A stretch of DNA of 64,000 bases. It comes from Pedobacter glucosidilyticus DSM 23534 (GTDB lineage: Bacteria; Bacteroidota; Bacteroidia; Sphingobacteriales; Sphingobacteriaceae). Both the position numbers and the translations under genes were made by a program. The notes beneath the pieces are model-generated. The model did no database searches and was not told where the DNA came from. It was given only the letters and a program-made list of their open reading frames with translations. How positions within the stretch are numbered: position 1 is the stretch's first letter; the number at the start of each line of letters is the position of its first letter. Below are positions 49,201 to 64,000 of this stretch, one piece after another. The stretch is from assembly GCF_000425145.1 (NCBI RefSeq), contig NZ_AULF01000011.1:62001-126000 (forward strand), given 5' to 3'.

Positions 49201-50325
49201 AAAATTTCCGTTTCTGGTTTCTAAAAAAGCACTTACGGCATTTCCAGAAAGCGAATTGCTAACCCCAGAAGGGTAATAATACTCTAAACCGAGGGCTTTT
49301 TCATGATAATAGTTTAAACCACCAAAATAAGTCCCAACCCAAATACCACCTTCTTTATCTTTAAAAACTCGGTAAACTGCATCATCACTTAAACTGTAGG
49401 GGTCATTATTTTTATTTTGATAATTAACAAATTTATTGCTTTTGATATCGAAGATATTAAGCCCTTTTTCTGTTGCTAAATAAAGAAGTCCTGGTTTTGG
49501 CTGATAGATACTTCTTACGATATTATCACTGATACTTTGCTTTCCAGATTTTTGGTAAACCTTAAATTTCTGGGCTTCCTCGTCCCATAGGTTAAGTCCA
49601 CCAGACATGGTACCCACCCAAATATGCCCTTCATGGTCAAGATATAAATCTAAAATAACATCATTAGAAAGGCTACCGGGTGCAGAAGAAGCTTTATAAT
49701 GCTTCATCTCTCTGGTTTTGGGGTTAAGCACATCTATACCTTTGCCATAGGTTCCTATCCAAATATGCCCAGCCTTATCTTCAATAATTTTTGATACTTC
49801 ATTAGATGAAATACTGTTATTTACCTTTGGGCGATGACTAAACTGAATAAGTTTATTTGAACTAGGCTGATAGCTATAAACGCCTTTTTCTTTAGTTGCT
49901 ATCCAAATTTGTCCTTTTTTAGACCTAAAAATATCATTGATGAATATCTTCCCCAAGGGCTCAAAAAGCTTAAATTTTTCTGTTTTAAGATCAAAAATAT
50001 AAATACCTTCATCCGTACCTATCCAAAAGGTGAACTTATCATACTTAAAAATTTTTCTGATAAAGTTATTCCCAATAGTACCTGCTACATTTTTGTTAAA
50101 CTGGAAAGATTTAAACTCGTAACCATCAAACCTATTTAAGCCATATTTAGTACCAAACCACATAAAGCCTTGCTCGTCTTGCGCAATATCCCAAATGGTA
50201 TTGGCGCATAAACCGTCTGAAACGGTATAATTTCTGAAAAACATTTTTTGTGCTAGTGCATCCTGAGAGCCCAGGCAAAGCAAAAGCAACCAAATAAAAC
50301 ATGATTTTACGAAATATGGAGGCAT
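46282..50325 (-). CDS. Hybrid two-component sensor/regulator (HTCS)
   Basis: This 1347-residue single-chain sensor regulates PULs. It has a signal, then two 7-bladed periplasmic propellers of reg_prop repeats (about 25-690, repeating GHIWIGTxxxGLNxxxP), a Y_Y_Y domain (about 700-780), one membrane span (WAYMVYAILAILSFILF, about 790-806), HisKA (AMAHEIRTPLSL), an ATPase domain (DDGIGIP, GGTGIGLAL), a receiver with phospho-acceptor Asp in IISDVMMPVMDG, and a C-terminal AraC HTH (GFSSHSYFSKCFYQQF). It senses an oligosaccharide in the periplasm and activates its own locus. It lies 40 bp downstream of the GH5-like gene. Confidence 0.95.
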   Translation of the reverse strand: MPPYFVKSCFIWLLLLCLGSQDALAQKMFFRNYTVSDGLCANTIWDIAQDEQGFMWFGTKYGLNRFDGYEFKSFQFNKNVAGTIGNNFIRKIFKYDKFTFWIGTDEGIYIFDLKTEKFKLFEPLGKIFINDIFRSKKGQIWIATKEKGVYSYQPSSNKLIQFSHRPKVNNSISSNEVSKIIEDKAGHIWIGTYGKGIDVLNPKTREMKHYKASSAPGSLSNDVILDLYLDHEGHIWVGTMSGGLNLWDEEAQKFKVYQKSGKQSISDNIVRSIYQPKPGLLYLATEKGLNIFDIKSNKFVNYQNKNNDPYSLSDDAVYRVFKDKEGGIWVGTYFGGLNYYHEKALGLEYYYPSGVSNSLSGNAVSAFLETRNGNFWIGTEDGGLNLFNKTDKTFQKYPFSKNQDSLSYHNIHALYEDKAGHIWIGMYTGGLNILNPKTGKIKRYKSKPSNPKTLSDNSIYAIDEDREGRIWVSTISGLNLYHPESDSFIRIQEKYLAKSCIYQVYQDKDLVLWIATYDNGLIKIDKKGKLKQYAYAPKEGAISSNKVISILDDDKGNLWLGTDGGGLNVFNKKAEKFTVYDERYGITTDVVYGVLKDEKSNLWISSNSGIFELNTLNNTTRNFGRWDNLQSQQYNYKSYYKSKDGKLYFGGINGFNAFYPQKIKTATQPTKVAFTNFQLFNKDIDLSDDDSPIKQTINFAQNIVLNHNQSVISIEYAALSYVSPNKIRYSFIMDGFDKDWNNVGSQRKATYTNLPAGDYVFKVRESDTATGNTTNISTVQLTILPPFYKTIWAYMVYAILAILSFILFKKYATEKARKENEIKLERLKNKSEQDFYKQKIEFFTAMAHEIRTPLSLIIAPLERLLGKKQKDPESEEQLQIMEENSDRLLTLVNQLLDFRRIESDIFEIHKEQIELVSFINNLKERFSSISYQKGVDFSLETAHQHLEMMADPEALMKIMSNLLINAFKFTRKKVSISINGIAMIDNQAMVSISIEDDGIGIPKDQINSIFTKFFKVSTAEHQYSNLGGTGIGLALAKSLIEKHQGKLLVDSQEGLKTVFTILIPFQEKEEVQHALDRVEELESEHHDGKPIVLVVEDDQSLLNFLSQSLVSEGYHPIKANNGQEGLKLLEQHHVDLIISDVMMPVMDGISFCKEVKNDINYSHLPIILLTAKTNSDAEIEGLESGADAYIAKPFKWKQLSLIARNLIELQANLKQRFAQHPFESTEILASGTKDKKFLNKLIEAIELRISDPLLSVEELGKELGLSRSSLYKKVKGMTGHVPNEFIRVIRLKNAAKLLTTQDYNISEVGYMVGFSSHSYFSKCFYQQFKLTPTEFADQHRTTIQTNT

Positions 50326-50365
50326 TAAATTGGCTTTAAATAGTATGTGTTCTAAGTTAATGCAT

Positions 50366-51448
50366 TTACTTGATTTCGTTTAACTTTTTAATCAGTTCTA
50401 CTTCATCGTTACGGTAAGGTGTACCATCTTTTTTGAAGATATCATGAAACCATTCTATAGGTTGTTCTCCGTTTTCTAAAGGTGTATCCCAAGCATAAAT
50501 GGTATTAGATTTACCTGCTACCAAACCCCAGTTTATGGCGCCTATATTTTCTCTCTTAAGCATCGGCATGATGTTCGCAAATCTGCTATTTCTGGTTCTT
50601 GCCATATACTCTGTACATATCATGGGTCTGCCAAAAGCTTTTAACATATCTATTACTCTTTTATGTAAATCTGGCTCTTCGTAATTGTGATAGGTGATGA
50701 TATCAGAGTTTAAAGCTTGCATGGCATTTAATGCATGAAAATTCCATGCCCAAAGACCAATACTTATAGGTTGCTGTGGTTCTACTGCCCTAGCCCAAGT
50801 TATAACACTTTTTAATAATGGGAATGATGTATTTAATTTACCTGAGTTTCCCGGTTCATTATACAAATCCCATAATAATATTCTTTCATCGGTTTTAAAA
50901 TGCGTCATCACATCTTTTACATATTTCTCTAAAGCCGGAAAATTACTGGCATTTTTTGAAGCTGGGTCTCCGGGGTCTTGTACCCAACCAGAGTTATGGA
51001 TACCTATTTTAGGTTCTGGTTGTTTGCCTGCGAAGCCTTGTTTATTCCAGCAATCATCAAAAAAAACAAATATGGTTTTGATACCATGTTTTTGAGCTAT
51101 AGAAAGGTATTGTCCTACCCTATTTTTAAAACCCGATGGATCTTTTTCCCAAGCTATGCTATGTAAATATACTCGCATGGTGTTAAAGCCAATGTTTTTT
51201 GCCCAAGCCAATTCTTTATCTATGGTAGCTGGGTCAAAAGTTTCGGCCTGCCACATTTCTAATTGATTGATAGCGGTACTTGGTAAAAAATCAGCCCCGT
51301 TTATCCATTTATGTTTACTATACCAAGCTTTTGCTTTTTCTATTGGCCATACTTTGCCAATAACACTTACCGTAGTATCTTGTGCTTTGATGGCGCTGCT
51401 TAAACACAAGAATAAAAGTATCAGTTTAATGATGTTTTTCTTTTTCAT
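50366..51448 (-). CDS. GH5-like (clan GH-A) glycoside hydrolase
   Basis: This exported 360-residue (beta/alpha)8 enzyme has a signal peptide ending AIKAQ. The acid/base is probably Glu198 in LWDLYNEPGN and the nucleophile Glu280 in MICTEYMARTRN, the clan GH-A pattern; it also has GFNTMRVYLHSIAW early in the barrel. It resembles Bacteroidota proteins often labelled 1,4-beta-xylanase or cellulase, but the family (GH5 or a close relative) and substrate are not certain. It lies 20 bp after the second GH43 gene in the PUL and probably cleaves the glycan backbone while the GH43 enzymes trim side chains. Confidence 0.85.
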   Translation of the reverse strand: MKKKNIIKLILLFLCLSSAIKAQDTTVSVIGKVWPIEKAKAWYSKHKWINGADFLPSTAINQLEMWQAETFDPATIDKELAWAKNIGFNTMRVYLHSIAWEKDPSGFKNRVGQYLSIAQKHGIKTIFVFFDDCWNKQGFAGKQPEPKIGIHNSGWVQDPGDPASKNASNFPALEKYVKDVMTHFKTDERILLWDLYNEPGNSGKLNTSFPLLKSVITWARAVEPQQPISIGLWAWNFHALNAMQALNSDIITYHNYEEPDLHKRVIDMLKAFGRPMICTEYMARTRNSRFANIMPMLKRENIGAINWGLVAGKSNTIYAWDTPLENGEQPIEWFHDIFKKDGTPYRNDEVELIKKLNEIK

Positions 51449-51468
51449 ATCTGCTAAAATTTTGTTTC

Positions 51469-52518
51469 CTATTTATTTTCAGAGGGATTTTTTTGTGCTA
51501 TTCCTGTCTTAACAGGGGTGTTAAAGTTTGGTGTACCATCTGCATTCCAAGTGAATTTTTGTGCTCGTGGAGATCTGTGACCACCGCAACCTTGACCCGG
51601 AGCCGAATTTGCATGATACAATATCCAGTCTTCTGTACCATCAGGAGATTTAAAGAAAGAATTATGCCCCGGTGCATACACGCCATTTTCTGGCGATTGT
51701 TTAAAAACAGGTTGTTGGTTTTTCTCCCATGAACTAGCTTTACGGATGTTTTTACCATTTAGACTAAGCATCCCTAAGGCATAAAAATCTGTCCAACAAC
51801 CACTTGCCGAGTAAATGATAAAGGTTTTAGCTCCATTTTTCAGGACTTGCGGACCTTCATTTACAGCTACATGTGGCGGATTATTTGGGTCGTTTAAATC
51901 TCCATGAAGCTCCCATGTTAATTGTGGTGTTGATATTTTATAGCGTTTACCTTTTATGGTATAAGGATTTTTCATTTTGGCAATAAAAATTTCTTGCTTT
52001 CCATTGGTATCTCCCTCCCAACCAGACCACACCATATACAACTTATTTTTGTGGTAAAATACAGAACCATCTATAGCCCATTTATCTGTTTTGTCATGTA
52101 CTTTTCCTTTAAATACCCAATTTCCTTCAAAAGGATTGGCAGCATTATTTTCCAAAACATACATTCTATGGTTTTGATTATTACCATCATCAGCAGCAAA
52201 ATACACATACCATTTACCCTCAATAAAATGAATTTCTGGTGCCCATATTTCTTTAGAATAGTTGGTTCCTGCCGGAGGTACAAAAATGGTTTTTCTTTCT
52301 GCGTTTTTTAATTCAGATAAATTCTTGGTTTTCCAAATTACTATGCTGTCTTGTAAAGTATGGGTATAGTAGTAATAACCATCCTTATAAATACTCCAAG
52401 GGTCTGCACCGGCCTCTAGCAATGGATTAGTAAATGTTTGGGCTTTTAGGGGCTGGTACCAAAAGAATAGCATCAACACCAACACATAACTGTGTATATA
52501 TTTAGATTGTATTTTCAT
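51469..52518 (-). CDS. Glycoside hydrolase family 43, exported
   Basis: This 349-residue five-bladed propeller enzyme has an uncleaved-looking or signal N-terminus (YVLVLMLFFWYQPLKAQ) and no lipobox. Catalytic residues are base Asp39 (EAGADPWS), pKa modulator Asp150 (WAIDGSVF) and acid Glu221 (NEGPQVL), with IWAPEIHFI between. GH43 members are arabinofuranosidases, xylosidases or arabinanases. It is a paralogue of the gene at 52520-53581, 1 bp upstream, with the same motif order. The pair probably removes arabinose or xylose in two steps or two locations. Confidence 0.93.
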   Translation of the reverse strand: MKIQSKYIHSYVLVLMLFFWYQPLKAQTFTNPLLEAGADPWSIYKDGYYYYTHTLQDSIVIWKTKNLSELKNAERKTIFVPPAGTNYSKEIWAPEIHFIEGKWYVYFAADDGNNQNHRMYVLENNAANPFEGNWVFKGKVHDKTDKWAIDGSVFYHKNKLYMVWSGWEGDTNGKQEIFIAKMKNPYTIKGKRYKISTPQLTWELHGDLNDPNNPPHVAVNEGPQVLKNGAKTFIIYSASGCWTDFYALGMLSLNGKNIRKASSWEKNQQPVFKQSPENGVYAPGHNSFFKSPDGTEDWILYHANSAPGQGCGGHRSPRAQKFTWNADGTPNFNTPVKTGIAQKNPSENK

Positions 52519-52519
52519 A

Positions 52520-53581
52520 TTATTTCTCTCCTGAAGGTTTTGTAATTTGTAAACCTATAGCTACAGGCTCTCCAAAATTTGGGAAGCCATCTGTACCTAT
52601 CGTTATCTTTTGCATCCTCACGTTTCTTTGTTCTGCGCAACCTTGGTTAGGATTACTATTTGCGTGGTAAATTATCCAGTTTTCGTTGCCATCTGGCGAT
52701 TTAAAAAAAGAATTATGCCCTGGCCCGTAAGCTCCACTTTGCGGCTTTTTAGTAAAAACAGGCTGATTGCGTTTTACCCAATCGTTTAAATTTAGAGGAT
52801 TACCGCCATCATTTAAACTCATCATCCCCAATGCATAATCATCTGTTCCGCAGAAACTTGCAGAATAAACCATAAATACTTTGTTATTGATGGTTAAAAC
52901 CTGAGGAGCTTCATTAACGCCAAAACCATTTCTCTCCCAAGCAAATTGCGGCGTAGTTAAACGGGTAGATGAGCCTTCCAATGTCCAAGGATTGGTCATC
53001 TTTGCGATGTAAATGTTTTGTGTTAAATCTGCATTATTTGGGTCTGGTCTTCCGCACCAAAGAAAATACCTTTGGCCATTATGTTCTAAAACGGTACCAT
53101 CAATAGCCCAAAAATCAGTATCGGTATTAAAAATTCTACCTTTATTTACCCAAGTTCCGGTAGTTGGGTCGGCATTACTATTTTCTAGTACCCAAGTACG
53201 CTGTGTTCTGTCCTCGCCATTACCCGCTGTGTAATAGATATACCATTTGTTATCTAAGAAGAATAGTTCTGGTGCCCAAATATTTCTTGAATTAGGCTGC
53301 CCGTTAGTTGGTGTAAAAACGGTTACCGCTTGCGCTGATGAAATTTTAGACATTGCCTCTGTTTTCCATAATCTGATAGCGTTTCCTACCGTATGCATGT
53401 AATAATAAGTACCATCTTTTTGGTAAACTGATGGGTCTGCACCGGTAATTAAAGGATTTGTAAAAGTAGTTTCCTGTGGTGGCACAAAAGGCTCTACAAC
53501 AGGTTTATCACTACTTTTACATCCTAACCAAAAAACTAATGAATAAACTATATAAATTCTAAAAATCACTCTTACATTCAT
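52520..53581 (-). CDS. Glycoside hydrolase family 43, lipoprotein
   Basis: This 353-residue GH43 enzyme carries a lipobox (FWLGCKSS, Cys21), so it is likely anchored in the membrane and may be surface-exposed, unlike its neighbour. Catalytic residues are Asp49 (ITGADPSVY), Asp161 (WAIDGTVL) and Glu224 (NEAPQVL), with IWAPELFFL in between. It shares most motifs with the downstream GH43, which indicates tandem duplication. It lies 77 bp downstream of susD. Specificity is unknown but arabinose side chains are the common substrate in loci of this layout. Confidence 0.93.
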   Translation of the reverse strand: MNVRVIFRIYIVYSLVFWLGCKSSDKPVVEPFVPPQETTFTNPLITGADPSVYQKDGTYYYMHTVGNAIRLWKTEAMSKISSAQAVTVFTPTNGQPNSRNIWAPELFFLDNKWYIYYTAGNGEDRTQRTWVLENSNADPTTGTWVNKGRIFNTDTDFWAIDGTVLEHNGQRYFLWCGRPDPNNADLTQNIYIAKMTNPWTLEGSSTRLTTPQFAWERNGFGVNEAPQVLTINNKVFMVYSASFCGTDDYALGMMSLNDGGNPLNLNDWVKRNQPVFTKKPQSGAYGPGHNSFFKSPDGNENWIIYHANSNPNQGCAEQRNVRMQKITIGTDGFPNFGEPVAIGLQITKPSGEK

Positions 53582-53658
53582 TATTTCTTGTTTTAAATGG
53601 CTTAATAAGTTTAGCTCTTTTGGAGGATGCCTAAACCTATTAAGCCTATTACTTTATA

Positions 53659-55194
53659 CTAGTATCTTGGGTTTTGTTTCAAATTTGGATTTAAGTCTAT
53701 ATCCCTTTGTGGTATAGGGTATAGCTCGTGTTTCCCAACTTCAAAGTTTGTAAAATCAGCATCTCTGCTTGCTAATGCAGGCCCTAAGTCTCCCCATCTT
53801 AATAAATCTGCCCAACGCCAGCCTTCACCTGCTAATTCCACAATACGCTCGTGTTTAAGCTGGGTTAAGAATTGTGTTTGATTTAAACCTGGCTTAGCAA
53901 CAGATAAAGGTGCTAAACCTGCTCTTTGTCTAACCCTATCTACCAAAGGATAAGCCTCTGATGTTCTGTTCAAACCATTTAAACATTCTGCCTGCATCAA
54001 TAAAACATCGGCAAAACGTATTAATCTGTAATTGTTTGGAGATCTAAAACCTTCTTGATCTTTCCAATGGTCGTTCAATAATTTTCTAAACCAAACGCCA
54101 TTAGCATCAGGGCCATTGCCATAACGGTCTGCAAAGCTTCTTCCATAAACCATGGTTGCTTGCGGACCAGCAGGGTCTGTAAAGTTATAAATGAATGAAG
54201 CTGCTAAACGTGGGTCTCTTTGCCCAGTGGTAGTTTGCTCTTGTAAAAATTCATCTATTAACCATCTACGGGCTCCACCATCAGAAAAACCAACTCCTGG
54301 AGGGGCAAAAAACTGAGCAATAGAAGTTCCCGTGTTATTAACACGACTTTCATCTACATCATCATCTGTATTTTCTGCCAGATTTTCATTAAACTGAATT
54401 TCAAAAACAGACTCCTCATTGTTTTCTCTGCTGATGATAAAGTTGTCTCTGTAATTGGTGGTTAAACGATAAATAGCAGCGCCAGGGCCTGTAATTAACC
54501 AATCAAAAGCGTTAAAAGCCAATTGATACTGTTTTTGTTGTAAATGCGTTTTACCCAGTAAAGCATAAGCAGCACCTCTGGTTGCTCTTCCTAAATCATC
54601 TCCGCTGTAAGAAAGTGGTAAATCTGGAATAGCCTCGTTTAAATCTTTAGCAACTTGCGCATAAGCCTCTGCTGTAGTAGCATTAGGCGGTACATCTGTT
54701 GGTTGCGATGGTGTTAGTAATAATGGTGGGTTACCAAAGTATAAAGTTAAGTTGAAATAGAAAAGTGCTCTTAGGAACTTCGCTTCCGCTATTACTCTTT
54801 TCTTTAGTGTTTCATCCATCTGTATGTTTGGAACATTAGCAATAACCTGATTAGCTCTAAAAACACCAACAAATAAGGTTTCCCATGTTAAAGAAGTTAA
54901 ACCGTCATTATAATTGGTTTGGTTAAAACGCATCAGGTTGTTTAGGCCTCCATCTCCTCCAGAACCAAAACCTTCATCAGATTTTAATATTCCGTGATAA
55001 TAAATCCAACGAGAATAAAGTCCGGGTGTTCTGTAAAAAGTACCATAAGCAGCATTTACTCCTCTAACAGCATCATCAGCATTTCGCCAGAAACTGGCAA
55101 TGGTTGGTGCATTAGGGTTAACTTCATTAAAATCTCTTTTACATCCCGAGAGGACTATAAGAGCTAATGTTAATATCGTGATATATTTTTTCAT
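53659..55194 (-). CDS. SusD/RagB-family glycan-binding lipoprotein
   Basis: This 511-residue surface lipoprotein has the lipobox LIVLSGCKRD, then FNEVNPNAPTIASFWRNADDAV, the helical AKFLRALFYFNLTLYFGNPPLL, RATRGAAYALLGKTHL and the C-terminal ERIVELAGEGWRWADLLRWG, ending YPIPQRDIDLNPNLKQNPRY. It binds the same glycan as the upstream SusC (24 bp gap) and caps its barrel. It is one of three SusD proteins in the window and is encoded just before the two GH43 enzymes, so an arabinose-containing polymer is likely. Confidence 0.95.
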   Translation of the reverse strand: MKKYITILTLALIVLSGCKRDFNEVNPNAPTIASFWRNADDAVRGVNAAYGTFYRTPGLYSRWIYYHGILKSDEGFGSGGDGGLNNLMRFNQTNYNDGLTSLTWETLFVGVFRANQVIANVPNIQMDETLKKRVIAEAKFLRALFYFNLTLYFGNPPLLLTPSQPTDVPPNATTAEAYAQVAKDLNEAIPDLPLSYSGDDLGRATRGAAYALLGKTHLQQKQYQLAFNAFDWLITGPGAAIYRLTTNYRDNFIISRENNEESVFEIQFNENLAENTDDDVDESRVNNTGTSIAQFFAPPGVGFSDGGARRWLIDEFLQEQTTTGQRDPRLAASFIYNFTDPAGPQATMVYGRSFADRYGNGPDANGVWFRKLLNDHWKDQEGFRSPNNYRLIRFADVLLMQAECLNGLNRTSEAYPLVDRVRQRAGLAPLSVAKPGLNQTQFLTQLKHERIVELAGEGWRWADLLRWGDLGPALASRDADFTNFEVGKHELYPIPQRDIDLNPNLKQNPRY

Positions 55195-55218
55195 GATTTT
55201 CTTTTTAAAGGTTCGAGA

Positions 55219-58200
55219 TTAAAAGCCCACACTTAAACCAAATGATAAAATTCTTGATGATGGGTAATTTCCGTTATCTACACCAGGCTGCAGGTTTACA
55301 TCTGCTCCAACAACATCAGGGTCTAAACCTTGGTAATTGGTAATGGTAAAGAGGTTTTGCCCACTTAGGTAAACTCTGGCATTGCCAATTTTTGCCTTTT
55401 CAAGAAATTTAGTAGGGATATTATAACCTAGCTCGATATTACGTAACCTCAAGAAAGAGCCATCTTCAATCCATCTGTCAGAATCTCCTCTGGCATTTTC
55501 ATTTATACCTCTATCATTAGGTGCAAATTGATAGCCTAATCTTGGGAAACTGGTATTGGTATTAGAAGGTGTCCATGGGTTAATATCTCTTCTGTAATTA
55601 GCATTACCATAGCTATCTAAATCCCTTAAAACATCATTATACAATTTATGACCAAAAGCACCATAAAACTGCATGCTTAAACTAAAGTTTTTGTAAGCCG
55701 AGTTAAATTGTAAGCCTGTGGTAAACTTAGGGAAAGGCGAACCTGCAAATACCCTATCAAACTCATTGATATCATCATTTGTTCCGCCATCTACAGCATT
55801 AACATAGCGGATATCGCCTGGCTTAGCATAAGCACTTTGCGCTCTGTGAGCATCTATCTCTGCTTGATTTTGGAAGATACCATCGGTTTTTAATACATAA
55901 TACTCACCTATAGACCGACCTACCTGAGTACGTGTAACGCCTGATGGAATATAAGCTCTAGGTAAACCCGTAGCTAAATCTATCCCCAGATTTCCAAGTT
56001 CTAACACTTTATTTCTGATGAAACTAAGGTTTGCCGCAACATCCCATTTGAATGCTCTGCTTAATTTTGGACGATAGCCTAACTCAAACTCTAAACCTTT
56101 ATTTTCTATAGAGCCAATATTTACAATAGGGTCTCCCTGTAAGTTTCCTAAATATTGTGGCAATGGCTGTCCTACCAACACATCTCTTGATACCGAACGG
56201 AATGCATCAATAGCTACCCTAAAACGGTTATCAAATAGTGCCGCATCTATACCAAAGTTGGTGGTTTCTTTCTCTTCCCATCTTAAATCTTCAAAAACCA
56301 ATCTGGCTTGGGTAGCACCTGGAAAAACTTGTTGATTTGGACCAAATACTACACTTGGAGCCTGATTTAAGAAGCCTGTAAATTGGTAAGCACCTAAAGT
56401 GTTAACCCCTAATATACCATAAGAACCTCTTAATTTTAAATCAGAAATCCAATCTACTTTAAAGAAATCTTCCTGAGATAATCTCCATGCTAAAGCTACA
56501 GAAGGGAAATAACCTGTTCTAAATCTTTCAGAAAATCTAGAATCTTTATCAGCCCTAAAGGTAAATGTAGCTAAGTAACGGTCATCGTAATTATAATTTA
56601 ACCTACCTAAAACAGAATTAAGTAAAAATTTGGTTAAACCACCAGATGAATTTCTATCGCCAGGGACACCACTAGTAGAATTTAAAGTAGTGAAATAATT
56701 ACCTCCAAATTGAGATAGTCTTAAACCGCTACCTAAAGTATTATCTATCTGGGTTGTTTGCTCGGTATAACCTACTACCCCATTAAAACGGTGTTTCTTA
56801 ATGTTATAGTTAAAATTAAGCGTGTGCTCAAACAAATAGCTTAAAAATTGGGATCTGTTATCTGTTAAGCTGCTAAAATCTGGAGATTGATTTTGATACC
56901 AAGAGCCATCTCTTCTTACCGCTTTTGATTTATCAAAGCTGGTTTCTAAACCTGCATTAAATTTATAGGTTAGGCCATCTAAAATCTTATACTCTAAAAA
57001 AGCATTACCTAACAACTTAACAAAGTTGCTATTTACTGAAGTAATATTAGCTATTGCTACCTGGTTACGAGAAAAGGTATTGATATTTCCATTGTCTCCA
57101 TAGCCCCATCCGCCCGGGTTGTTGGCGCTTATCAAACTATTGCTTCTAACAGGTATTAAAGGCACACTAGACCACATATCATACCAGGGGTTACCCTCTG
57201 CAAAACCTCCCTGAAAAGGAGCATTTACATTAGAGCTTGATAAAGCGAAGTTCTCACCAAATTTGAATTTCCCTTTGGTTGATTCTGTATTGATACGAAG
57301 TGATTTTCTATCAAAATCACGAGCTATTAATGTTCCTTCGTCTTTGAAATATCCAGCAGATATCAAATAAGAAGATGTTGCCGAACCTCCAGAAATACTA
57401 GCATTAAAATCTTGAACAGCACCTGTTTGTAAGAGCTCATTTGCCCAATCTGTATCTATACTACCATTGTAATTAGCCACACCCGGTTGTAGTGGAATAC
57501 CAGAATTGGTATAAGCTCTGGCATTGGTAGCTGCATACTCTGCACCATTCATCATATCATACTTCTTAGGTATTTGTGAGATGCTATATCTTGAGCTTAC
57601 AGAAATTTTTGGAGTACCTTCTTTACCTTTTTTAGTTGTGATGATGATAACCCCGTTACCTGCTCTAGAACCATAAATAGCTGCTGCTGATGCATCTTTT
57701 AATATTTGTATATCAGCAATATCATTAGGGTTAACGGTAGTATTTGGGTCTGCAAACATTCCATCTATTACATAAAGCGGACTTGCATTACCAAAAGTTG
57801 CTAAACCTCTGATGTTAACCACTGCTTCTTGCCCTGGTGCACCACCATTTCTAACCGCAACACCTGGTGATAGGCCTTGTAATGCCTCTGGCATAGAACG
57901 AGCTACTAATTTTTCTGTATTATCTGTATCAATAGATGTTGAGGCTCCGGTTACATCACTTTTTCTGATGGTTTGATAACCAATAACCACCACCTCTTGT
58001 AAAGCTTTCACATCTTCTTCTAAAGTGATATTGATACTTGCTCTGCCATTAACAGCAATTTCCTGACTTAAAAAGCCTAAATAAGAAAAAACAAGAACTG
58101 CGTTGTTATCAGGAATGTTGATGCTATAATTTCCATTTGCATCTGAAACCGCACCTACATTGGTATTTTTAATTTTAATACTTACCCCCGGTAATGGCAA

Positions 58201-58389
58201 ACCAGCTTTATCAACTATTTTACCCTTTACATTTGTGTTTTGTATAATTACTTTGTTTGAAATTTTATTCGTTGCAAAAATCGGATAACATCCAAAAGAA
58301 ACGAGACCTGCAACAAGTGCAAGTTTAAGAGGCCATTTTAGCCTATACGTATCATTAAAAATTATTAGTACTTTTATTAATCTCATCAT
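55219..58389 (-). CDS. SusC/RagA-family TonB-dependent transporter without STN domain
   Basis: This 1056-residue transporter has a signal segment, a carboxypeptidase-like domain directly after it (GKIVDKAGLPLPGVSIKIKN, about 57-135), a plug with VIGYQTIRKSDVTGAST and a barrel ending LSFGLSVGF. Unlike the two other SusC proteins here it lacks the STN signalling domain. This fits its control by the HTCS encoded in the same locus, not by a sigma/FecR pair. It is the first gene of the PUL, with a 293-bp upstream region. The initial MM gives two possible ATG starts one codon apart. Confidence 0.95.
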   Translation of the reverse strand: MMRLIKVLIIFNDTYRLKWPLKLALVAGLVSFGCYPIFATNKISNKVIIQNTNVKGKIVDKAGLPLPGVSIKIKNTNVGAVSDANGNYSINIPDNNAVLVFSYLGFLSQEIAVNGRASINITLEEDVKALQEVVVIGYQTIRKSDVTGASTSIDTDNTEKLVARSMPEALQGLSPGVAVRNGGAPGQEAVVNIRGLATFGNASPLYVIDGMFADPNTTVNPNDIADIQILKDASAAAIYGSRAGNGVIIITTKKGKEGTPKISVSSRYSISQIPKKYDMMNGAEYAATNARAYTNSGIPLQPGVANYNGSIDTDWANELLQTGAVQDFNASISGGSATSSYLISAGYFKDEGTLIARDFDRKSLRINTESTKGKFKFGENFALSSSNVNAPFQGGFAEGNPWYDMWSSVPLIPVRSNSLISANNPGGWGYGDNGNINTFSRNQVAIANITSVNSNFVKLLGNAFLEYKILDGLTYKFNAGLETSFDKSKAVRRDGSWYQNQSPDFSSLTDNRSQFLSYLFEHTLNFNYNIKKHRFNGVVGYTEQTTQIDNTLGSGLRLSQFGGNYFTTLNSTSGVPGDRNSSGGLTKFLLNSVLGRLNYNYDDRYLATFTFRADKDSRFSERFRTGYFPSVALAWRLSQEDFFKVDWISDLKLRGSYGILGVNTLGAYQFTGFLNQAPSVVFGPNQQVFPGATQARLVFEDLRWEEKETTNFGIDAALFDNRFRVAIDAFRSVSRDVLVGQPLPQYLGNLQGDPIVNIGSIENKGLEFELGYRPKLSRAFKWDVAANLSFIRNKVLELGNLGIDLATGLPRAYIPSGVTRTQVGRSIGEYYVLKTDGIFQNQAEIDAHRAQSAYAKPGDIRYVNAVDGGTNDDINEFDRVFAGSPFPKFTTGLQFNSAYKNFSLSMQFYGAFGHKLYNDVLRDLDSYGNANYRRDINPWTPSNTNTSFPRLGYQFAPNDRGINENARGDSDRWIEDGSFLRLRNIELGYNIPTKFLEKAKIGNARVYLSGQNLFTITNYQGLDPDVVGADVNLQPGVDNGNYPSSRILSFGLSVGF

Positions 58390-58682: not shown

Positions 58683-59165
58683 CTAAGCTTTTAAGCTCCA
58701 CCAAAGCCCTAAAACCACCAAGCCTAAGAAAATCATAGCCAGTAGGATTAAGGTAAAACTCCCTTTCCTTTCCACTTCCTTTTCTAATGTTTTATGAGTT
58801 GTTTTCTTTAACAGTTCTTGTTCTTGCTGTTGGGCTTTAACCGTACTGCTTTGCTGCTGATGGCTTTGTTTTACTAAACTGTCTTTACTACTGCTTTTGT
58901 AAACTTTTACTTTGATATAGCCCGGTTGCTGCTGTAAGCCACTATCTGGATGCCAATAAAAGAGTTCGTCCATTTCTAAGACGATACCTTCTTTTACTTG
59001 TTGTTGTGTTGCGTTTATCGTACTGCTTTGGCTTTGCAGGCTGTCTTTTACAAGTGTAGCCTGTTTGGTTTTTTCCAATGCTGTGATGAGCTGCTGATAC
59101 CTGGATTTCTGGCTGGAACAGGCTGTTAGTATAAGCATCACCAATAGTGTATAAAACTTTTTCAT
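58683..59165 (-). CDS. Spanin-like protein: N-terminal lipobox plus C-terminal membrane anchor
   Basis: This 160-residue protein starts at ATG 59165 (MKKFYTLL), preceded by an unusually strong Shine-Dalgarno AAGGAGGG at good spacing. A lipobox LILTAC places the lipid on Cys16, and Ser at +2 and +3 favours outer-membrane sorting. A Gln/Ser/Lys-rich helical middle contains two similar segments (KDSLQSQSSTINATQQQ at 41-57 and KDSL...SSTVKAQQQ at 95-115). A single span (about 137-157, LILLAMIFLGLVVLGLWW) ends the protein. An outer-membrane lipid plus inner-membrane span in one chain is the layout of phage unimolecular spanins such as T1 gp11. It overlaps the amidase gene by ATGA. No sequence similarity is claimed. 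Confidence 0.7.
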   Translation of the reverse strand: MKKFYTLLVMLILTACSSQKSRYQQLITALEKTKQATLVKDSLQSQSSTINATQQQVKEGIVLEMDELFYWHPDSGLQQQPGYIKVKVYKSSSKDSLVKQSHQQQSSTVKAQQQEQELLKKTTHKTLEKEVERKGSFTLILLAMIFLGLVVLGLWWSLKA

Positions 59166-59740
59166 ATACTTTCCCTCCTTGCTGTCACCCAATCTGCCAC
59201 GGCATATAAAGTACGTTTTAGCCTACGTTTGCGATAAACTCCATCTCCTTCTCTGCTTCCGGCTTCATTGGTATTCCCTTCAACCGTGATGATGATACTA
59301 TCTCCCCAAGCATCTATAAAACCGCAATGGGCAATGCGTTTTTTGGAGGCGTACCAAATACCAAAAACATCTCCTGCCTGTGGCTGTATCTTTTCTTGCT
59401 GCCAAGTGTTCTTCCAAATGATACGCTTTTGAGGTAATAATGCCGGACTCCATGCAGTCTGTGGATTGCTGATCCCTGCTTTGCCTAAGCACCAGCTTAC
59501 AAAGGCGGCACACCAAGGTGCCCCTTTGCTGTGGCCTGTATATTGGAGGTAGCTTTCTACCCGGCTACCGTCGTTACGGTTGCTTTTTTCTCTGGTACCT
59601 ATTTCTTGGCTGTAGATGTTTTTGAGCCTTGTTCTGCTTGCTGATCCTATTCCTGCTTTTACAAAATGGCTATGAGTGTGCAAATAAAGCCATAGAGAAG
59701 TAATAGATAGAAGCTTAAATAGATGATGATTTTTTGACAT
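59162..59740 (-). CDS. CHAP-domain peptidoglycan amidase/endopeptidase (endolysin-like)
   Basis: This 192-residue protein has a hydrophobic N-terminus (about 7-28), which may be a signal or signal-anchor, and a CHAP/NlpC-like cysteine peptidase. Catalytic residues are Cys77 in APWCAAFVSWCL, His138 in RIAHCGFI and an acidic or amide residue in VEGNTNE (154-158). EIGTREKSNRNDGSRVESYL precedes the domain as in TIGR02594-type enzymes. It should cut the cell-wall peptide stem or cross-bridge. Its first 82 bp overlap the end of the upstream membrane-protein gene, and its last 4 bp overlap the spanin-like gene. The start is the only ATG before the domain. Confidence 0.85.
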   Translation of the reverse strand: MSKNHHLFKLLSITSLWLYLHTHSHFVKAGIGSASRTRLKNIYSQEIGTREKSNRNDGSRVESYLQYTGHSKGAPWCAAFVSWCLGKAGISNPQTAWSPALLPQKRIIWKNTWQQEKIQPQAGDVFGIWYASKKRIAHCGFIDAWGDSIIITVEGNTNEAGSREGDGVYRKRRLKRTLYAVADWVTARRESI

Positions 59741-60036
59741 GAGGATAGATGGTTAAAGTGTGAATGAAATTGTTCTTTGGAGAAATTGCCCAATACCGGC
59801 CAGATATTTTCAATTAGCCACCAAGTAAGTGCTTTAAAAAGTAGGAAGGCCAAAATAGCTACTAAAATAGCACTGAGGATGCCTGCATCTAGTGGGGCTG
59901 CTGTTTCGTCTACCAATCTTAAAACTGTTGAACTGCACAAAAAAAGGATTAACAGAAATAGAATACTGAGTAGTTCTTTATGAATACGAATGGGAATACT
60001 GTAAACCCATTTTGTCGTTATAGATATACTTTTCAT
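59659..60036 (-). CDS. Small three-helix membrane protein, holin-like
   Basis: This 125-residue protein has three predicted spans (about 22-39, 51-75 and 102-124) and a short basic N-terminus, a topology and size close to class I phage holins such as lambda S (about 105 residues). No sequence family is recognised, so the holin call rests on size, topology and position directly before the CHAP enzyme, whose gene it overlaps by 82 bp. It is 18 bp downstream of the DUF6266 gene, so all four probably share a transcript. It could equally be a membrane partner of the peptidase. Confidence 0.65.
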   Translation of the reverse strand: MKSISITTKWVYSIPIRIHKELLSILFLLILFLCSSTVLRLVDETAAPLDAGILSAILVAILAFLLFKALTWWLIENIWPVLGNFSKEQFHSHFNHLSSCQKIIIYLSFYLLLLYGFICTLIAIL

Positions 60037-60054: not shown

Positions 60055-60684
60055 TTACACAAGGCACTGGAAACCTCCGAAGTACTTACTGTTGGATACT
60101 GCTTGTCTGTTTACATCTCTTAGAAATGCGTAACATTCAAAACCATCATGAAAACTATTTGGGATGGTAAATTGATGACTTTTTTCATCTTTTTTGAATT
60201 TAATAAGCTTGGTTATCCAAGAGTTTTGGATGGCACTATAACAAGCGATAACCAGTTCGCTTTTCTTGTTTACTTTTTTTCTGGGCCAGATAACTTGAAG
60301 GCTTTGTGCTTCCAGCTTTATATTGAGCTTATCTGGTAAACTCATCTTGCCCTTAGTGAGGATGACTTTAGAAAAATCTATAAATAAATGAGGATAAACC
60401 CCTCCTACGATACTTTTTCTAATTGCAGAACGATTCTTTTTTTGGACTTCGATTTCCTCATTTTCTACAGCTCCCATTTTAAGGACATGGGCTGCCGTTA
60501 GCAGAAATTTATTAGCCATTGTAAAGCGTTTTCTATTTTCTTCCTGCCCCGGTGTTGCAATGAGATTAGGATTATTCTTTGGGGACCTTCTTACAATGGT
60601 ACCTTTTTTACTTTTACAGAATATAAGGTCGCCTACTTTTCCGGAAAGACCTGCATAAATACTGTCTGATTTTATGAATGCCAT
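60055..60684 (-). CDS. DUF6266-family protein
   Basis: This 209-residue protein has the DUF6266 signature: N-terminal GLSGKVGDLIF, KGTIVRRSPK, a helical ENRKRFTMANKFL, the middle GGVYPHLFIDFSKVILTKGKM and the end SNSKYFGG. DUF6266 proteins are common in Sphingobacteriales, usually several per genome, and their function is unknown; no signal peptide is seen. It shares its N-terminal module with the protein at 61098-61664. It directly precedes the membrane-protein/CHAP/spanin-like genes, which ties the family to a possible cell-envelope-breaking unit. The family call is from memory of its pattern. Confidence 0.75.
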   Translation of the reverse strand: MAFIKSDSIYAGLSGKVGDLIFCKSKKGTIVRRSPKNNPNLIATPGQEENRKRFTMANKFLLTAAHVLKMGAVENEEIEVQKKNRSAIRKSIVGGVYPHLFIDFSKVILTKGKMSLPDKLNIKLEAQSLQVIWPRKKVNKKSELVIACYSAIQNSWITKLIKFKKDEKSHQFTIPNSFHDGFECYAFLRDVNRQAVSNSKYFGGFQCLV

Positions 60685-60700: not shown

Positions 60701-61090
60701 ATGAGGCTGTCTTAAATCACGATTTATATATGATGAAGAAATTAATATATAATCTTCGAATCCGTTACTATCGACGTTTTAAAATATTTCAAAATCAGGC
60801 ATTCACCCACTAGCTACTCCGGCCTCTTGACCGGCCATGTCAAGATACTTTTTTCCGCAAAAAGTATCCAAAAACTCTCCGCTGCGCCGCTTGCTTCTAG
60901 AGTTTCTGCTAAGGCTAGTTCCGTAGATACCGCAACCGCCAAGGCGGAATAGGGCGTAAACGGTTGTTTATGCTTAGGCTCGATTATCGAAATACTTGAA
61001 CACGTCATTACATATTTATGAATATGAAATACTTGTTGTAGTCAAGTGTTAAGTTTCAGAATCATAAATCGATCTTTAAGACCGCCTCAT
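60701..61090. mobile_element. MITE-like element with imperfect inverted ends
   Basis: The left end ATGAGGCTGTCTTAAA (from 60701) and the right end, read on the other strand from 61090 as ATGAGGCGGTCTTAAAGATC, match over about 27 bp, both continuing to CGATTTAT. The 390-bp element contains no convincing gene but a GC-rich core (60830-60965) with ACTTTTTTCCGCAAAAAGT, itself a hairpin. It sits between the two DUF6266-type genes. A third related end occurs at 63140. No transposase is in view, so it would move only with help from elsewhere. Confidence 0.65.
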
Positions 61091-61097
61091 TACTTGA

Positions 61098-61664
61098 TTA
61101 AAGTTGGGTTACTTGGATGGTTTCATTTTCGGGCATATCATAAGCCTTAACAATGATACTTGAGGTGGCGTAATCTGGGTTGGCTACCGTTGTTACATAT
61201 ATCCATTTGGACACATCTTCTTGTTGGATGGCCTCACCTTCCTCTATCAAGGTATTAGCAGCATCTCTGATTTCTACTTTTACGGCTGTAACCATAAAAT
61301 TATCATAAACGGTTGCTTCTATTTGATAACCTACCTGACCAATGTACCCGCTGTAGTTAGGTTCAGCTTTGATTTCAGGGGCTTTTTGATAATCTGCAAA
61401 AGCCACATTGTAAGCACTTTGATCTGCTTCTGCAGCAGCTCCATAGAGTGCCTTTTTAGCAAGATCGCTGATAGCAGCTTTTGCATACCTAGCGGCTTTG
61501 ATGAAGCGTTCTCTTACGCTTAGCTGATTGGCATTTGGGTTATCTACTCGGGCCTTTGGACGATCTGATACGATCGTTTTTCCTCCTCTTTGTCTGAAGA
61601 CTAATAGATCTCCTATTAATCCTGATAAACCATGTGTGATGACGTTGTTTCTTGACTTTGCCAT
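61098..61664 (-). CDS. DUF6266-like protein with C-terminal beta domain
   Basis: This 188-residue protein begins with GLSGLIGDLLVFRQRGGKTIVSDRPK, matching the DUF6266 protein at 60055 (GLSGKVGDLIF, GTIVRRSPK) and followed likewise by a helical R-E-RF-KAARYAKAAI segment. From about residue 95 it turns into an Ig or FN3-like beta domain (YIGQVGYQIEATVYDNF, VKVEIRDAAN). No signal peptide is seen. Function unknown. A phased AGAACC array lies 108-166 bp upstream of its start and may control it. A MITE-like element separates it from the DUF6266 gene. Confidence 0.65.
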   Translation of the reverse strand: MAKSRNNVITHGLSGLIGDLLVFRQRGGKTIVSDRPKARVDNPNANQLSVRERFIKAARYAKAAISDLAKKALYGAAAEADQSAYNVAFADYQKAPEIKAEPNYSGYIGQVGYQIEATVYDNFMVTAVKVEIRDAANTLIEEGEAIQQEDVSKWIYVTTVANPDYATSSIIVKAYDMPENETIQVTQL

Positions 61665-61830: not shown

Positions 61831-61970
61831 ATCAGCTCTTGATACTGCTACTGCTCTTGTTACTGAAATGAGAAGAAAATGGTGAAAAGTGTGATTTTTG
61901 GTGTTTTCTTCCTTCGGTGTTCCTTCGGATTGATATGTGTGATCTATGTGTGATGTATGTGTTAGGGGGG

Positions 61971-62056
61971 GGTTAGTTGGTTAGTTTGTTAGATGGTTAG
62001 TTTGTTAGGTGGTTAGTTTGTTAGGTGGTTAGTTTGTTAGGTGGTTAGTTTGTTTG
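61971..62056. repeat. 16-bp tandem repeat GGTTAGTTTGTTAGGT
   Basis: About five copies in a row, with the last ones degenerate, related by the GGTTAG core to the array at 44731. It is non-coding on both strands. Confidence 0.85.
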
Positions 62057-62060
62057 GGGC

Positions 62061-62310
62061 TGGGTGGTTACTTGTAGGTTGTAGGATTTTTTTTGTTTTT
62101 TTCTTGTGCTCGTTTGCAACGAGTACTTAACATGGTGTGGCGATTGTATCGCTTTTATGATCACAAAGATGTAGGAGATGGGTGGTTACTCGTATGTTGT
62201 AGACCTTTTTTTGTTTAACCACAATGATTTTTTTAATGTTTTAACCACGGAGGGCGCAGAGAGCACTGAGCTGGGGGGTTACTTGTAGGTTGTAGACTTT
62301 TTTTGTTTAA
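62061..62310. repeat. Three spaced copies of TGGGTGGTTACTTGTAGG plus a second CGGAGGGCGCAGAG element
   Basis: GGTGGTTACTTGTAGGTTG occurs at about 62063, in variant form near 62180, and near 62275, each followed by a T-rich run and TTGTTT. The GC-rich block at 62241-62280 (AACCACGGAGGGCGCAGAG) is the second copy of the element at 44843. No gene is present. Confidence 0.7.
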
Positions 62311-62362
62311 ACGTTCTGGTTTGTGAAGCGGAGAATGATGCCTTTCTTATCGTACGTAATGA

Positions 62363-62560
62363 GCCTTGCGTGATGAGATTGCTTCACTGTGTTACGATGA
62401 CAAAAAAGGGTGTTTGCGATGACTAAGCAATTGGGATAGCCTTGCGTGATGAGATCGCTTCACTGTGTTACGATGACAAAAAATGGGTGTTCGCGATGAA
62501 AAAAGGGGTGTTTACGATGACAAAAAAGGGTGTTCGCAAAAATATGTGTTCGCTGTGAGA
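62363..62560. repeat. 76-bp tandem repeat and degenerate tail
   Basis: GCCTTGCGTGATGAGAT begins at 62363 and again at 62439. Both copies continue to GCTTCACTGTGTTACGATGA and then a GGTGTTYGCGATGA segment. The last segment recurs in degenerate form to about 62560. Period is 76 bp. Intergenic, non-coding; together with the other repeats it fills the 1029-bp gap 61665-62693. Confidence 0.75.
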
Positions 62561-62693: not shown

Positions 62694-62984
62694 TTAAAAG
62701 TTGAAAAAGCTTTGTAAACGGGATTCTTTGATGACTTTTTCCACTTCTGAACGTAGGTACATATCCTTTCTCCCAACTTTAGCTGGACAAAGAATTTTTT
62801 CTCGTTTCCAACGGTACAGGGTACTTCTGTGGATATTGAAATAAGATTTTACTTCATAAGCATCCATCCATACTTTTTCGTTTGTTTGAGCCTTAGGTTC
62901 TAATTGTTGTAGGGTTTCAAGTATCTGGTTTAAAACGGTTTGGATGTTTAAGATAATGGCGAAGAATCGTAAGAAATGCATCAT
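62694..62984 (-). CDS. Small helix-turn-helix DNA-binding protein (HTH_17/excisionase-like)
   Basis: This 96-residue protein has a leucine-rich N-terminal helix (about 13-30, LNQILETLQQLEPKAQ) and a winged helix (about 38-87: WMDAYEVKSYFNIHRSTLYR, then KVGRKDMYLRSEVEKVI). Such proteins are common in Bacteroidota mobile elements and phages, where they act as excisionase-like or regulatory factors. The first residues MMHFLRFF look less conserved, so the true start may be a later codon. It is the only regulator near the phased AGAACC array and the lysis-like cassette, so it may control them. Not related to any adjacent integrase, since none is visible. Confidence 0.7.
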   Translation of the reverse strand: MMHFLRFFAIILNIQTVLNQILETLQQLEPKAQTNEKVWMDAYEVKSYFNIHRSTLYRWKREKILCPAKVGRKDMYLRSEVEKVIKESRLQSFFNF

Positions 62985-63506: not shown

Positions 63507-63590
63507 ATTTTTATCAATTATATTACAAATTACGTCTCTCCGATTAATATTTTTTAACCTGTTGATAAAACACATCAATTTGTGGATGAG

Positions 63591-64000
63591 ATGGTATATT
63601 CGTATCATGAACTGATAAAACCTTCTGGAAAATCACTTTGGAAACATCTTTTGTTTTGGTTTTTTTATATTACCTATGAAATTTTTATCACAAGATATGT
63701 TGCTCATGTTAAGGCTCATTTTTTAGATTATTTATTGCATTATGTAGCCTATATCGCTTTCTTTTACGCCCATATTTACCTGCTATTTCTAACTATTAAA
63801 CCCGGAAAAATCTATTACCTATGGCTTAGTTGTGGCGTTTTGATTGAGATTATCTTGCTATACGTATGCAATACAGGGATTTATTACCTTTTACAATCTT
63901 TAGCCATCCCTACTGTAGCAGTTTCACCTTTACTGGTAAAATCATTTATGACTACCGTTTACAGAGCAATTTTGCTCATGATATTAAGTACGGGGTATTT
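63591..64000 (+). CDS. Membrane protein N-terminus, probably a LytS-type histidine kinase (runs off window)
   Basis: ATG at 63591 (with a possible GTG at 63582) opens a frame that stays open to the right edge, about 136 residues. The start MVYSYHELIKPSGKSLWKHL is followed by at least three hydrophobic spans (FWFFYITYEIF, YVAYIAFFYAHIYLLFL, VLIEIILLYVC). This KPSGK...HLLFWFFYITYE opening resembles the N-terminus of LytS-type sensor kinases of Sphingobacteriaceae, but the kinase domain is outside the window. It is divergent from the short peptide gene, with 84 bp between the two starts. Confidence 0.5.
   Translation, partial: MVYSYHELIKPSGKSLWKHLLFWFFYITYEIFITRYVAHVKAHFLDYLLHYVAYIAFFYAHIYLLFLTIKPGKIYYLWLSCGVLIEIILLYVCNTGIYYLLQSLAIPTVAVSPLLVKSFMTTVYRAILLMILSTGY

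Follow-up and report, generated by a model that had tools for sequence, protein, structure and literature searches.

A chromosomal cassette of holin-, endolysin- and spanin-like genes beside DUF6266 in Pedobacter glucosidilyticus, a candidate device for lysis-powered protein release

A 64,000-nucleotide stretch of the Pedobacter glucosidilyticus DSM 23534 genome (contig NZ_AULF01000011.1, forward-strand positions 62,001 to 126,000, referred to here as the window and numbered from its first base) carries on its minus strand three consecutive overlapping genes with the look of a phage lysis module, and the question is what such a module does on a bacterial chromosome. The first gene (59659-60036) encodes TM3, a 125-residue protein of three spans with predicted N-in/C-out topology, which we regard as a putative holin of a new family. 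It is followed by an endolysin-like CHAP-domain peptidoglycan hydrolase (59162-59740, 192 residues) with a hydrophobic N-terminus and conserved Cys77 and His138, and by a lipoprotein resembling a unimolecular spanin (u-spanin; 58683-59165, 160 residues) with a lipobox, LTA-C16, and a C-terminal span at residues 138-154. TM3 and CHAP overlap by 82 bases (59659-59740), the CHAP start codon being embedded in TM3, and CHAP and the lipoprotein by four, ATGA (59162-59165). Gene coordinates, Pfam matches and a scan for spans and lipoboxes bear out this layout and both overlaps as they stood in the original prediction, which had suggested that the stand-alone cassette may be a domesticated or repurposed lysis device, possibly linked to the adjacent DUF6266 proteins. 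That proposal is supported by the sequence comparisons reported here. The description stand-alone holds in that no phage structural or integrase genes were found among the scanned neighbours, but not in that two DUF6266-family genes lie directly upstream, often together with an HTH_17 gene.

We consider it probable that this is a chromosomal lysis cassette which works like a type 10 secretion system (T10SS) and releases exchangeable leaderless cargo. The proposed cargo is DUF6266 protein B (60055-60684, minus strand, 209 residues; Pfam PF19781 at 2.9e-09), with a second candidate in the divergent DUF6266-family protein A (61098-61664, minus strand, 188 residues), which has no PF19781 match in Pfam and was grouped with DUF6266 by an iterated profile. 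The genes, their predicted topology, the embedded start, the order and overlaps and the exchange of modules and cargo can be read directly from the sequence, and from these we infer holin and spanin activity, regulation, lysis and the release of DUF6266. The operon would be switched on in some cells, where leaderless DUF6266-family cargo would build up in the cytoplasm; TM3, as a holin, would permeabilise or depolarise the inner membrane, the exported CHAP enzyme would cut peptidoglycan and the lipoprotein, as a u-spanin, would join and disrupt the outer membrane, so that the cargo would be set free, most likely through lysis of the producing cell. PMC10847048 describes T10SSs as holins, endolysins and spanins outside phages that release proteins mostly without signals, and as lytic, and non-lytic secretion has been reported for the Salmonella T10SS in PMC13284979. 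In the window cassette the presence of a spanin-like gene would favour lytic release.

The case for TM3 as a holin, and for the unit as a lysis module, is strongest where unrelated holin-, lysozyme- and spanin-like genes take the same order beside DUF6266. A scan of named genomes gave 171 confirmed DUF6266 stretches, the best 80 of which were read together with one viral-contig locus, making 81. A recognised module gene lay downstream on the same strand at 27 of these, and upstream or on the other strand at none. At 14 loci, mostly from metagenome-assembled genomes (MAGs) that carry the labels Bacteroidales, Paludibacter or Bacteroidetes, the genes after DUF6266 encode a three-span protein, a lysozyme-like protein (P5) and a lipoprotein with a C-terminal span; at eight DUF6266 is followed by TM3, with CHAP in the scanned stretch in seven, one of them as a fused frame; and at three by a one-span protein with the same lysozyme and lipoprotein types. 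The remaining two are a truncated contig with the one-span gene alone and a locus with an M15 peptidase. Profiles of the non-TM3 families were seeded from this same locus set, and each seed counts by construction. At one such locus (L111) the three-span protein scores above the Pfam cut-off for Phage_holin_4_1 (PF05105) and is about 30% identical to annotated Bacteroides-group phage holins, and its P5 neighbour, lysozyme-like and leaderless by eye, matches a PHROG family named endolysin at 4.3e-40. At the level of sequence, the whole lysis set beside DUF6266 is thus exchanged for a non-homologous one with an equivalent composition and order, and the suspected link to DUF6266 reaches beyond the window's own gene families. 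The sole DUF6266 match in viral_contigs (L179, 4.3 kb) reads DUF6266-holin-lysozyme-spanin, and was perhaps called viral owing to its lysis genes.

TM3 was found in 25 of 120 relatives, and in the 43 TM3 loci tabulated from them the genes stay together: within the stretch read, CHAP is present at 42, DUF6266 at 33 and a related helix-turn-helix (HTH) gene at 28, upstream on the same strand in 26. This table covers 44 of 55 TM3 matches. Not included were nine of G035 (bacterium A37T11) and one each of G020 and G092; those nine, with six further ones of G035, make up the 15 A37T11 regions described below. The window genome itself has three such cassettes and one further solitary DUF6266. With three copies in one genome and an order and overlap that recur across genera, the cassette is not a chance assembly of genes. 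On a wider scale TM3 is present in at least 69 of 251 Sphingobacteriaceae genomes, representing 13 of 25 sampled genera, and, in a sample drawn from the whole phylum, in at least two of 395 genomes, the window genome being one; at most 17 and at most 10 candidates per genome were scored in the two surveys, which makes both counts lower bounds. DUF6266 is more widespread, occurring in 26 of the same 395 genomes, the window genome included. The richest genome, A37T11, has at least 17 TM3 matches, three of them with in-frame stops in the matched stretch, and a match on C19 from the search of relatives makes 18.

The CHAP enzyme matches Pfam CHAP above the cut-off (4.1e-07) and a PHROG endolysin family at 2.1e-19, and shares 31-35% identity with phage endolysins over the best 20 of 88 matches; a PDB sequence search with it gave no match. 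The catalytic C77 and H138 are kept in 42 of 43 aligned CHAP proteins, and many members have by eye an export-type hydrophobic N-terminus. The overlap with TM3 is exactly 82 bases in 46 of 70 gene pairs from several genera, a count based on 72 TM3 genes that include duplicates (L100, L102, L109 and L126 repeat other loci). Among the 68 distinct TM3 genes an ATG stands at exactly this distance in 52 and a GTG in one more. Because the embedded start codon straddles two TM3 codons, TM3 must encode Trp or Cys at that site, and one or the other is found in all 53 TM3 genes with a start; the 15 with no start codon there comprise 12 with another residue and three with Trp and CTG. A single DNA stretch hence codes for both the third TM3 span and the hydrophobic beginning of the CHAP protein. 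In the Daejeonella lutea (G057) loci L073-L075, where a DUF6266 gene separates TM3 and CHAP, no embedded start remains. These patterns support the embedded ATG as the true start of CHAP, and the conserved 82-base placement accounts for the tight co-translation previously suggested from the overlaps.

TM3 has hydrophobic segments at residues 21-39, 49-67 and 107-125. It has no Pfam match above cut-off and no NCBIfam match; membership of a known non-holin family, which would have spoken against the original prediction, was thus not found above a cut-off, and the best PHROG E-value is 0.029 for the window protein and 0.006 among 35 family members. At least three hydrophobic segments were found, at a lenient threshold, in 66 of 68 distinct members, and the short three-span size is that of class I holins. 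We also considered TM3 as a diverged Phage_holin_4_1 and rejected this, as there is no Pfam match and the hhalign E-value of 0.68 indicates unrelated families. A single-query search of 50,697 phage records found no TM3. What TM3 has in common with holins is its size, its number of spans, its position and the order of the genes alone, and we propose it as a new putative holin family.

The combination of lipobox and C-terminal span that marks the window lipoprotein was found in the gene directly after the endolysin at 51 of 68 loci, versus 10 of 459 control open reading frames (ORFs) in the same loci. Broken down by class of locus, such a gene was present after 28 of 42 CHAP genes from the relatives, at 6 of 8 named CHAP loci, among which three repeat others, at 17 of 17 P5 loci and at 0 of 1 M15 locus, with one locus near a contig end omitted; the loci are related and hence are not independent events. 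Three more (L066, L067 and L070) pass by eye. All 12 aligned lipoproteins of the window type lack a periplasmic cysteine, their cysteines being confined to signal or span, as has been reported for phage u-spanins in PMC6139136. The best PHROG spanin match of the lipoprotein has an E-value of 0.29 and is confined to its N-terminus. With its lipobox, C-terminal span and freedom from periplasmic cysteine we describe the protein as spanin-like.

What would be released appears to vary in both identity and position. DUF6266 B has an N-terminal GKVG region and, by homology, a C-terminal domain like fibronectin type III (FN3); Pfam gives no function for PF19781, and we found no literature naming it. 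In bacterium A37T11 a different leaderless protein of 210-219 residues, FNC, follows CHAP in 14 of 15 regions, the fifteenth ending at a contig edge. With two further loci, L098 carrying FNC and L093 carrying DUF6266, the 17 TM3 places read in this genome (L185-L199, L093 and L098) hold 15 FNC and one DUF6266, one being cut by the contig end. A lipobox and C-terminal-span gene lies within 500 bases after FNC at 13 of 17 FNC loci of two genomes (11 of 14 A37T11 regions and both of G020, not L098), giving the order TM3-CHAP-FNC-spanin. Across cassettes the cargo gene may thus stand ahead of TM3, between TM3 and CHAP, or between CHAP and spanin. AlphaFold2 models of DUF6266 (the L005 paralogue; mean predicted local distance difference test, pLDDT, 88.5) and of FNC (pLDDT 90.3) have different N-terminal halves, each followed by an FN3-like C-terminal domain. 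The PDB fold matches listed are mostly FN3-type and cover the C-terminal part alone (best E 1.9e-04 for DUF6266 and 2.4e-06 for FNC), and Pfam fn3 is found below cut-off in two of three FNC proteins. No signal peptide was seen by eye in DUF6266 or FNC. Both families fit a cytoplasmic protein destined for the outside, and the modelled FN3 fold suggests a binding or adhesion role for the cargo outside the cell. DUF6266 as a phage virion protein was rejected, as searches with one query or pattern set each gave no phage record, one viral contig and no plasmid record.

The way in which these cassettes have diverged is also informative. Nine of them, from three genomes of the genus, fall into three cargo types, and TM3 and the CHAP leader mostly track the type of cargo. 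The catalytic part of CHAP and the spanin are often closer within a genome than between same-type cassettes of other genomes: the window spanin is 91% identical to its own paralogues, versus 78-80% to its counterparts in G013 cassettes with that type of cargo. The pattern points to lysis genes that evolve in concert within a genome. An exception is L062 of G013, the spanin of which shares 84-88% identity with the three of the window genome and 72-75% with the remaining three of G013, and L063 is mixed, combining a type-1 TM3 C-terminus with type-3-like cargo. L062 is also a cassette cut inside TM3, with CHAP and spanin frames still open; upstream of it lie ORFs that by eye we take to be an IS21-type transposase pair.

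A break was found in the window cassette as well. Relative to P. glucosidilyticus UBA7667 (G010), which also carries a cassette beside the same SusC gene, DNA identity is 97% from about 59916, inside TM3, into SusC (compared as far as 56000), while on the cargo side of this breakpoint nothing is alike but short repeats. A simple exchange of cargo between the two strains was considered and rejected, as the break inside TM3 is real but the other flank also differs: the window's flank was not found in UBA7667 in a search run without a positive control, and parts of the UBA7667 flank are found on contig C14 of the window genome. Rearrangement at the cassette is as likely here as local exchange of cargo.

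Taken more broadly, we put it at even odds that Bacteroidota harbour an unnamed class of lysis-powered release islands, built from an HTH gene, holin, endolysin and u-spanin with exchangeable leaderless FN3-ended cargo, with no fewer than 17 copies in a single genome and using a new holin family that starts its endolysin from an embedded ATG. A population with such islands could sacrifice a few cells in order to release varied extracellular proteins, and the lysis genes would evolve in concert as the cargo, holin and endolysin leader diversify as types.

Several findings weigh against cargo release by lysis. Where 1.5 kb or more can be read downstream of DUF6266, which is the case at 74 loci, 50 are devoid of any recognised lysis gene, some of them Flavobacterium loci and others tandem arrays in Bacteroidales, and DUF6266 can therefore manage without lysis genes nearby. 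The predicted orientation of TM3 by the positive-inside rule, N-in/C-out in 65 of 66 members, is opposite to that of class I holins, which are N-out and C-in, and profile comparison finds TM3 unrelated to PF05105. The signal-like N-terminus of CHAP means that a holin may be unnecessary for crossing the membrane. P5 has no Pfam match, the PHROG family that it matches is classed with head and packaging proteins, and it has weaker matches to tail proteins. At 17 of 68 loci the gene after the endolysin failed the spanin test, although three of these pass by eye and L085 and L087 carry such a gene after FNC. Lastly, Bacteroidales-type lipoproteins have a cysteine at the edge of the span in nine of nine cases, and that of L110 has another at residue 84.

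An alternative to release is that the cassette is an altruistic or regulated cell-death module of a defence-like kind, with a trigger such as phage infection, in which DUF6266 would be a sensor or inhibitor and not cargo; we regard this as unlikely. The DUF6266 genes do precede the lysis genes on the same strand, their products seem cytosolic by eye, and PADLOC gives two weak hits, one between the HTH protein and mad1 (5.2e-05) and one between DUF6266 B and JetD (3.7e-04), but TM3, CHAP and the spanin have no PADLOC match at E 0.01, and the varied identity and position of the cargo, together with tandem DUF6266 arrays with no recognised lysis genes, are a poor fit to a dedicated inhibitor. Identification with a known defence system was rejected on account of the weakness of the PADLOC matches. 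The arrays themselves hold four to five DUF6266 genes, mostly in Bacteroidales-labelled MAGs, with no recognised lysis genes in the visible stretch (L122, L128-L130, L138, L148, L150, L154, L155, L161 and L168-L171, of which L161 and L169 end soon after the array).

Less credible still is a non-lytic operon for envelope remodelling, in which CHAP would trim the wall and TM3 and the lipoprotein would form a scaffold, for example for surface display or assembly of DUF6266. An export-type CHAP N-terminus, seen by eye in many members, would fit such a role in that a holin is not strictly needed, and some T10SSs are reported to secrete without lysis in PMC13284979, but in the Bacteroidales-type loci the same position is occupied by a phage holin recognised by Pfam, together with a lysozyme-like protein in which no leader is seen by eye. 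Least probable is a prophage or phage-satellite remnant that has kept a lysis cassette and a virion-like neighbour with no host function, since, for all the likeness of CHAP to phage endolysins, of the Bacteroidales holin to phage holins, of the HTH protein to excisionases and of the FN3 part of FNC to phage minor tail proteins, and although FN3 domains and tail proteins make up most of the viral fold matches of DUF6266, single-query searches of 50,697 phage records found neither DUF6266 (queried with the L005 paralogue) nor TM3, the viral_contigs pattern scan gave one DUF6266 locus, and the catalytic residues and the 82-base overlap are kept across genera. For the Sphingobacteriaceae version, CHAP alone suggests that it came from a phage. 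The neighbours scanned against family libraries, which cover the window from 45128 rightward, contain no capsid, tail, terminase or integrase gene, in agreement with the original prediction.

Compared with known systems, a T10SS-like release device shares most with the T10SSs of Serratia (ChiWXYZ), Yersinia entomophaga (YenLC) and Salmonella, which likewise pair a holin-like protein with a peptidoglycan hydrolase outside a phage and have leaderless cargo; those of Serratia and Yersinia also encode a spanin, the counterpart of the spanin-like protein in the window cassette, and the phage-lysis layout is common to both. We draw the comparison by analogy and from sequence features, and do not claim membership: TM3, holin-like by topology, is encoded with CHAP outside a phage context, and DUF6266 and FNC start by eye without a hydrophobic leader. 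Cargo free of conventional signals is not universal in T10SSs. Unlike the T10SSs, the window-type cassette belongs to another phylum, has a holin candidate of a new family, a one-protein spanin instead of an Rz/Rz1-type pair and a CHAP with an export-type N-terminus, and carries exchangeable cargo inside or beside it, often with several cassettes per genome. Cassettes of the phage T1 gp11 u-spanin type share the order holin-endolysin-spanin and a last gene with a lipoprotein signal, a C-terminal span and no periplasmic cysteine, but the window cassette differs from them in being multicopy and chromosomal, with no phage genes in the scanned neighbours and cargo inside or beside it. The L111 holin that follows DUF6266 belongs with the PF05105 cassettes of Bacteroides-group phages, and the window TM3 does not. 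Among characterised T10SSs, PMC13284979 names those of Serratia, Yersinia, Salmonella and Clostridioides; we found no literature on T10SSs in Bacteroidota, judged by titles, and none linking holins with fibronectin type III in sphingobacteria. If the proposed reading is correct, DUF6266, a family with no function, would gain one, a new holin family could be named, and lysis-based release would reach another phylum. The dispute over lytic and non-lytic T10SSs would also become testable in Pedobacter through natural paralogues distinguished chiefly by their cargo, their holin and the leader of their endolysin.

Other features of the surroundings concern regulation and genome context. The HTH_17 gene (62694-62984, minus strand; Pfam HTH_17 at 7.9e-07) encodes a proposed regulator and resembles excisionases in PHROG; no integrase was seen among the scanned neighbours. 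Divergent from it is the start of a sensor histidine kinase gene (63582-63998, plus strand), the association of which with the cassette is uncertain, and a LytTR response regulator follows just past the right end of the window; the pair matches His_kinase, Response_reg and LytTR. A LytTR-type gene was found by either of two profiles at 16 of the 43 TM3 loci. LytTR regulators were rejected as a fixed part of the cassette, on this count and on finding a LytTR unit at C14 with no cassette in the 16 kb read. That unit, in which a membrane regulator of the LytTR type is accompanied by two small conserved genes (starting MEKVPFTPAG and MASRCSKAKSKMKKKFIIP; L205:8906-11658), recurs beside several cassettes, but at C14 it occurs without one. 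To the left of the cassette lies a region for glycan utilisation (45128-58389), which has SusC/SusD, GH43 and GH5. Membership of the cassette in this locus was rejected, as other cassettes among those listed adjoin unrelated genes.

Past the right end of the window a lantibiotic dehydratase gene (Lant_dehydr_N and Lant_dehydr_C; L004:9414-12227) adjoins the LytTR sensor pair, and a short ORF near the cassette on C41 (L005:8190-8651) resembles, by eye, what is left of the C-terminal part of another dehydratase gene of this kind. Between the DUF6266 A and B genes, 60780-61060 is an interspersed repeat of about 250-280 bases. Counting itself, it has 23 matches across the genome; the other copies are 82-90% identical to it, and some are partial. 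From the HTH gene to DUF6266 A, 61964-62065 and 62362-62537 hold a G/T-rich tandem repeat of period 8 (GTTAGTTG-like) together with further repeated units.

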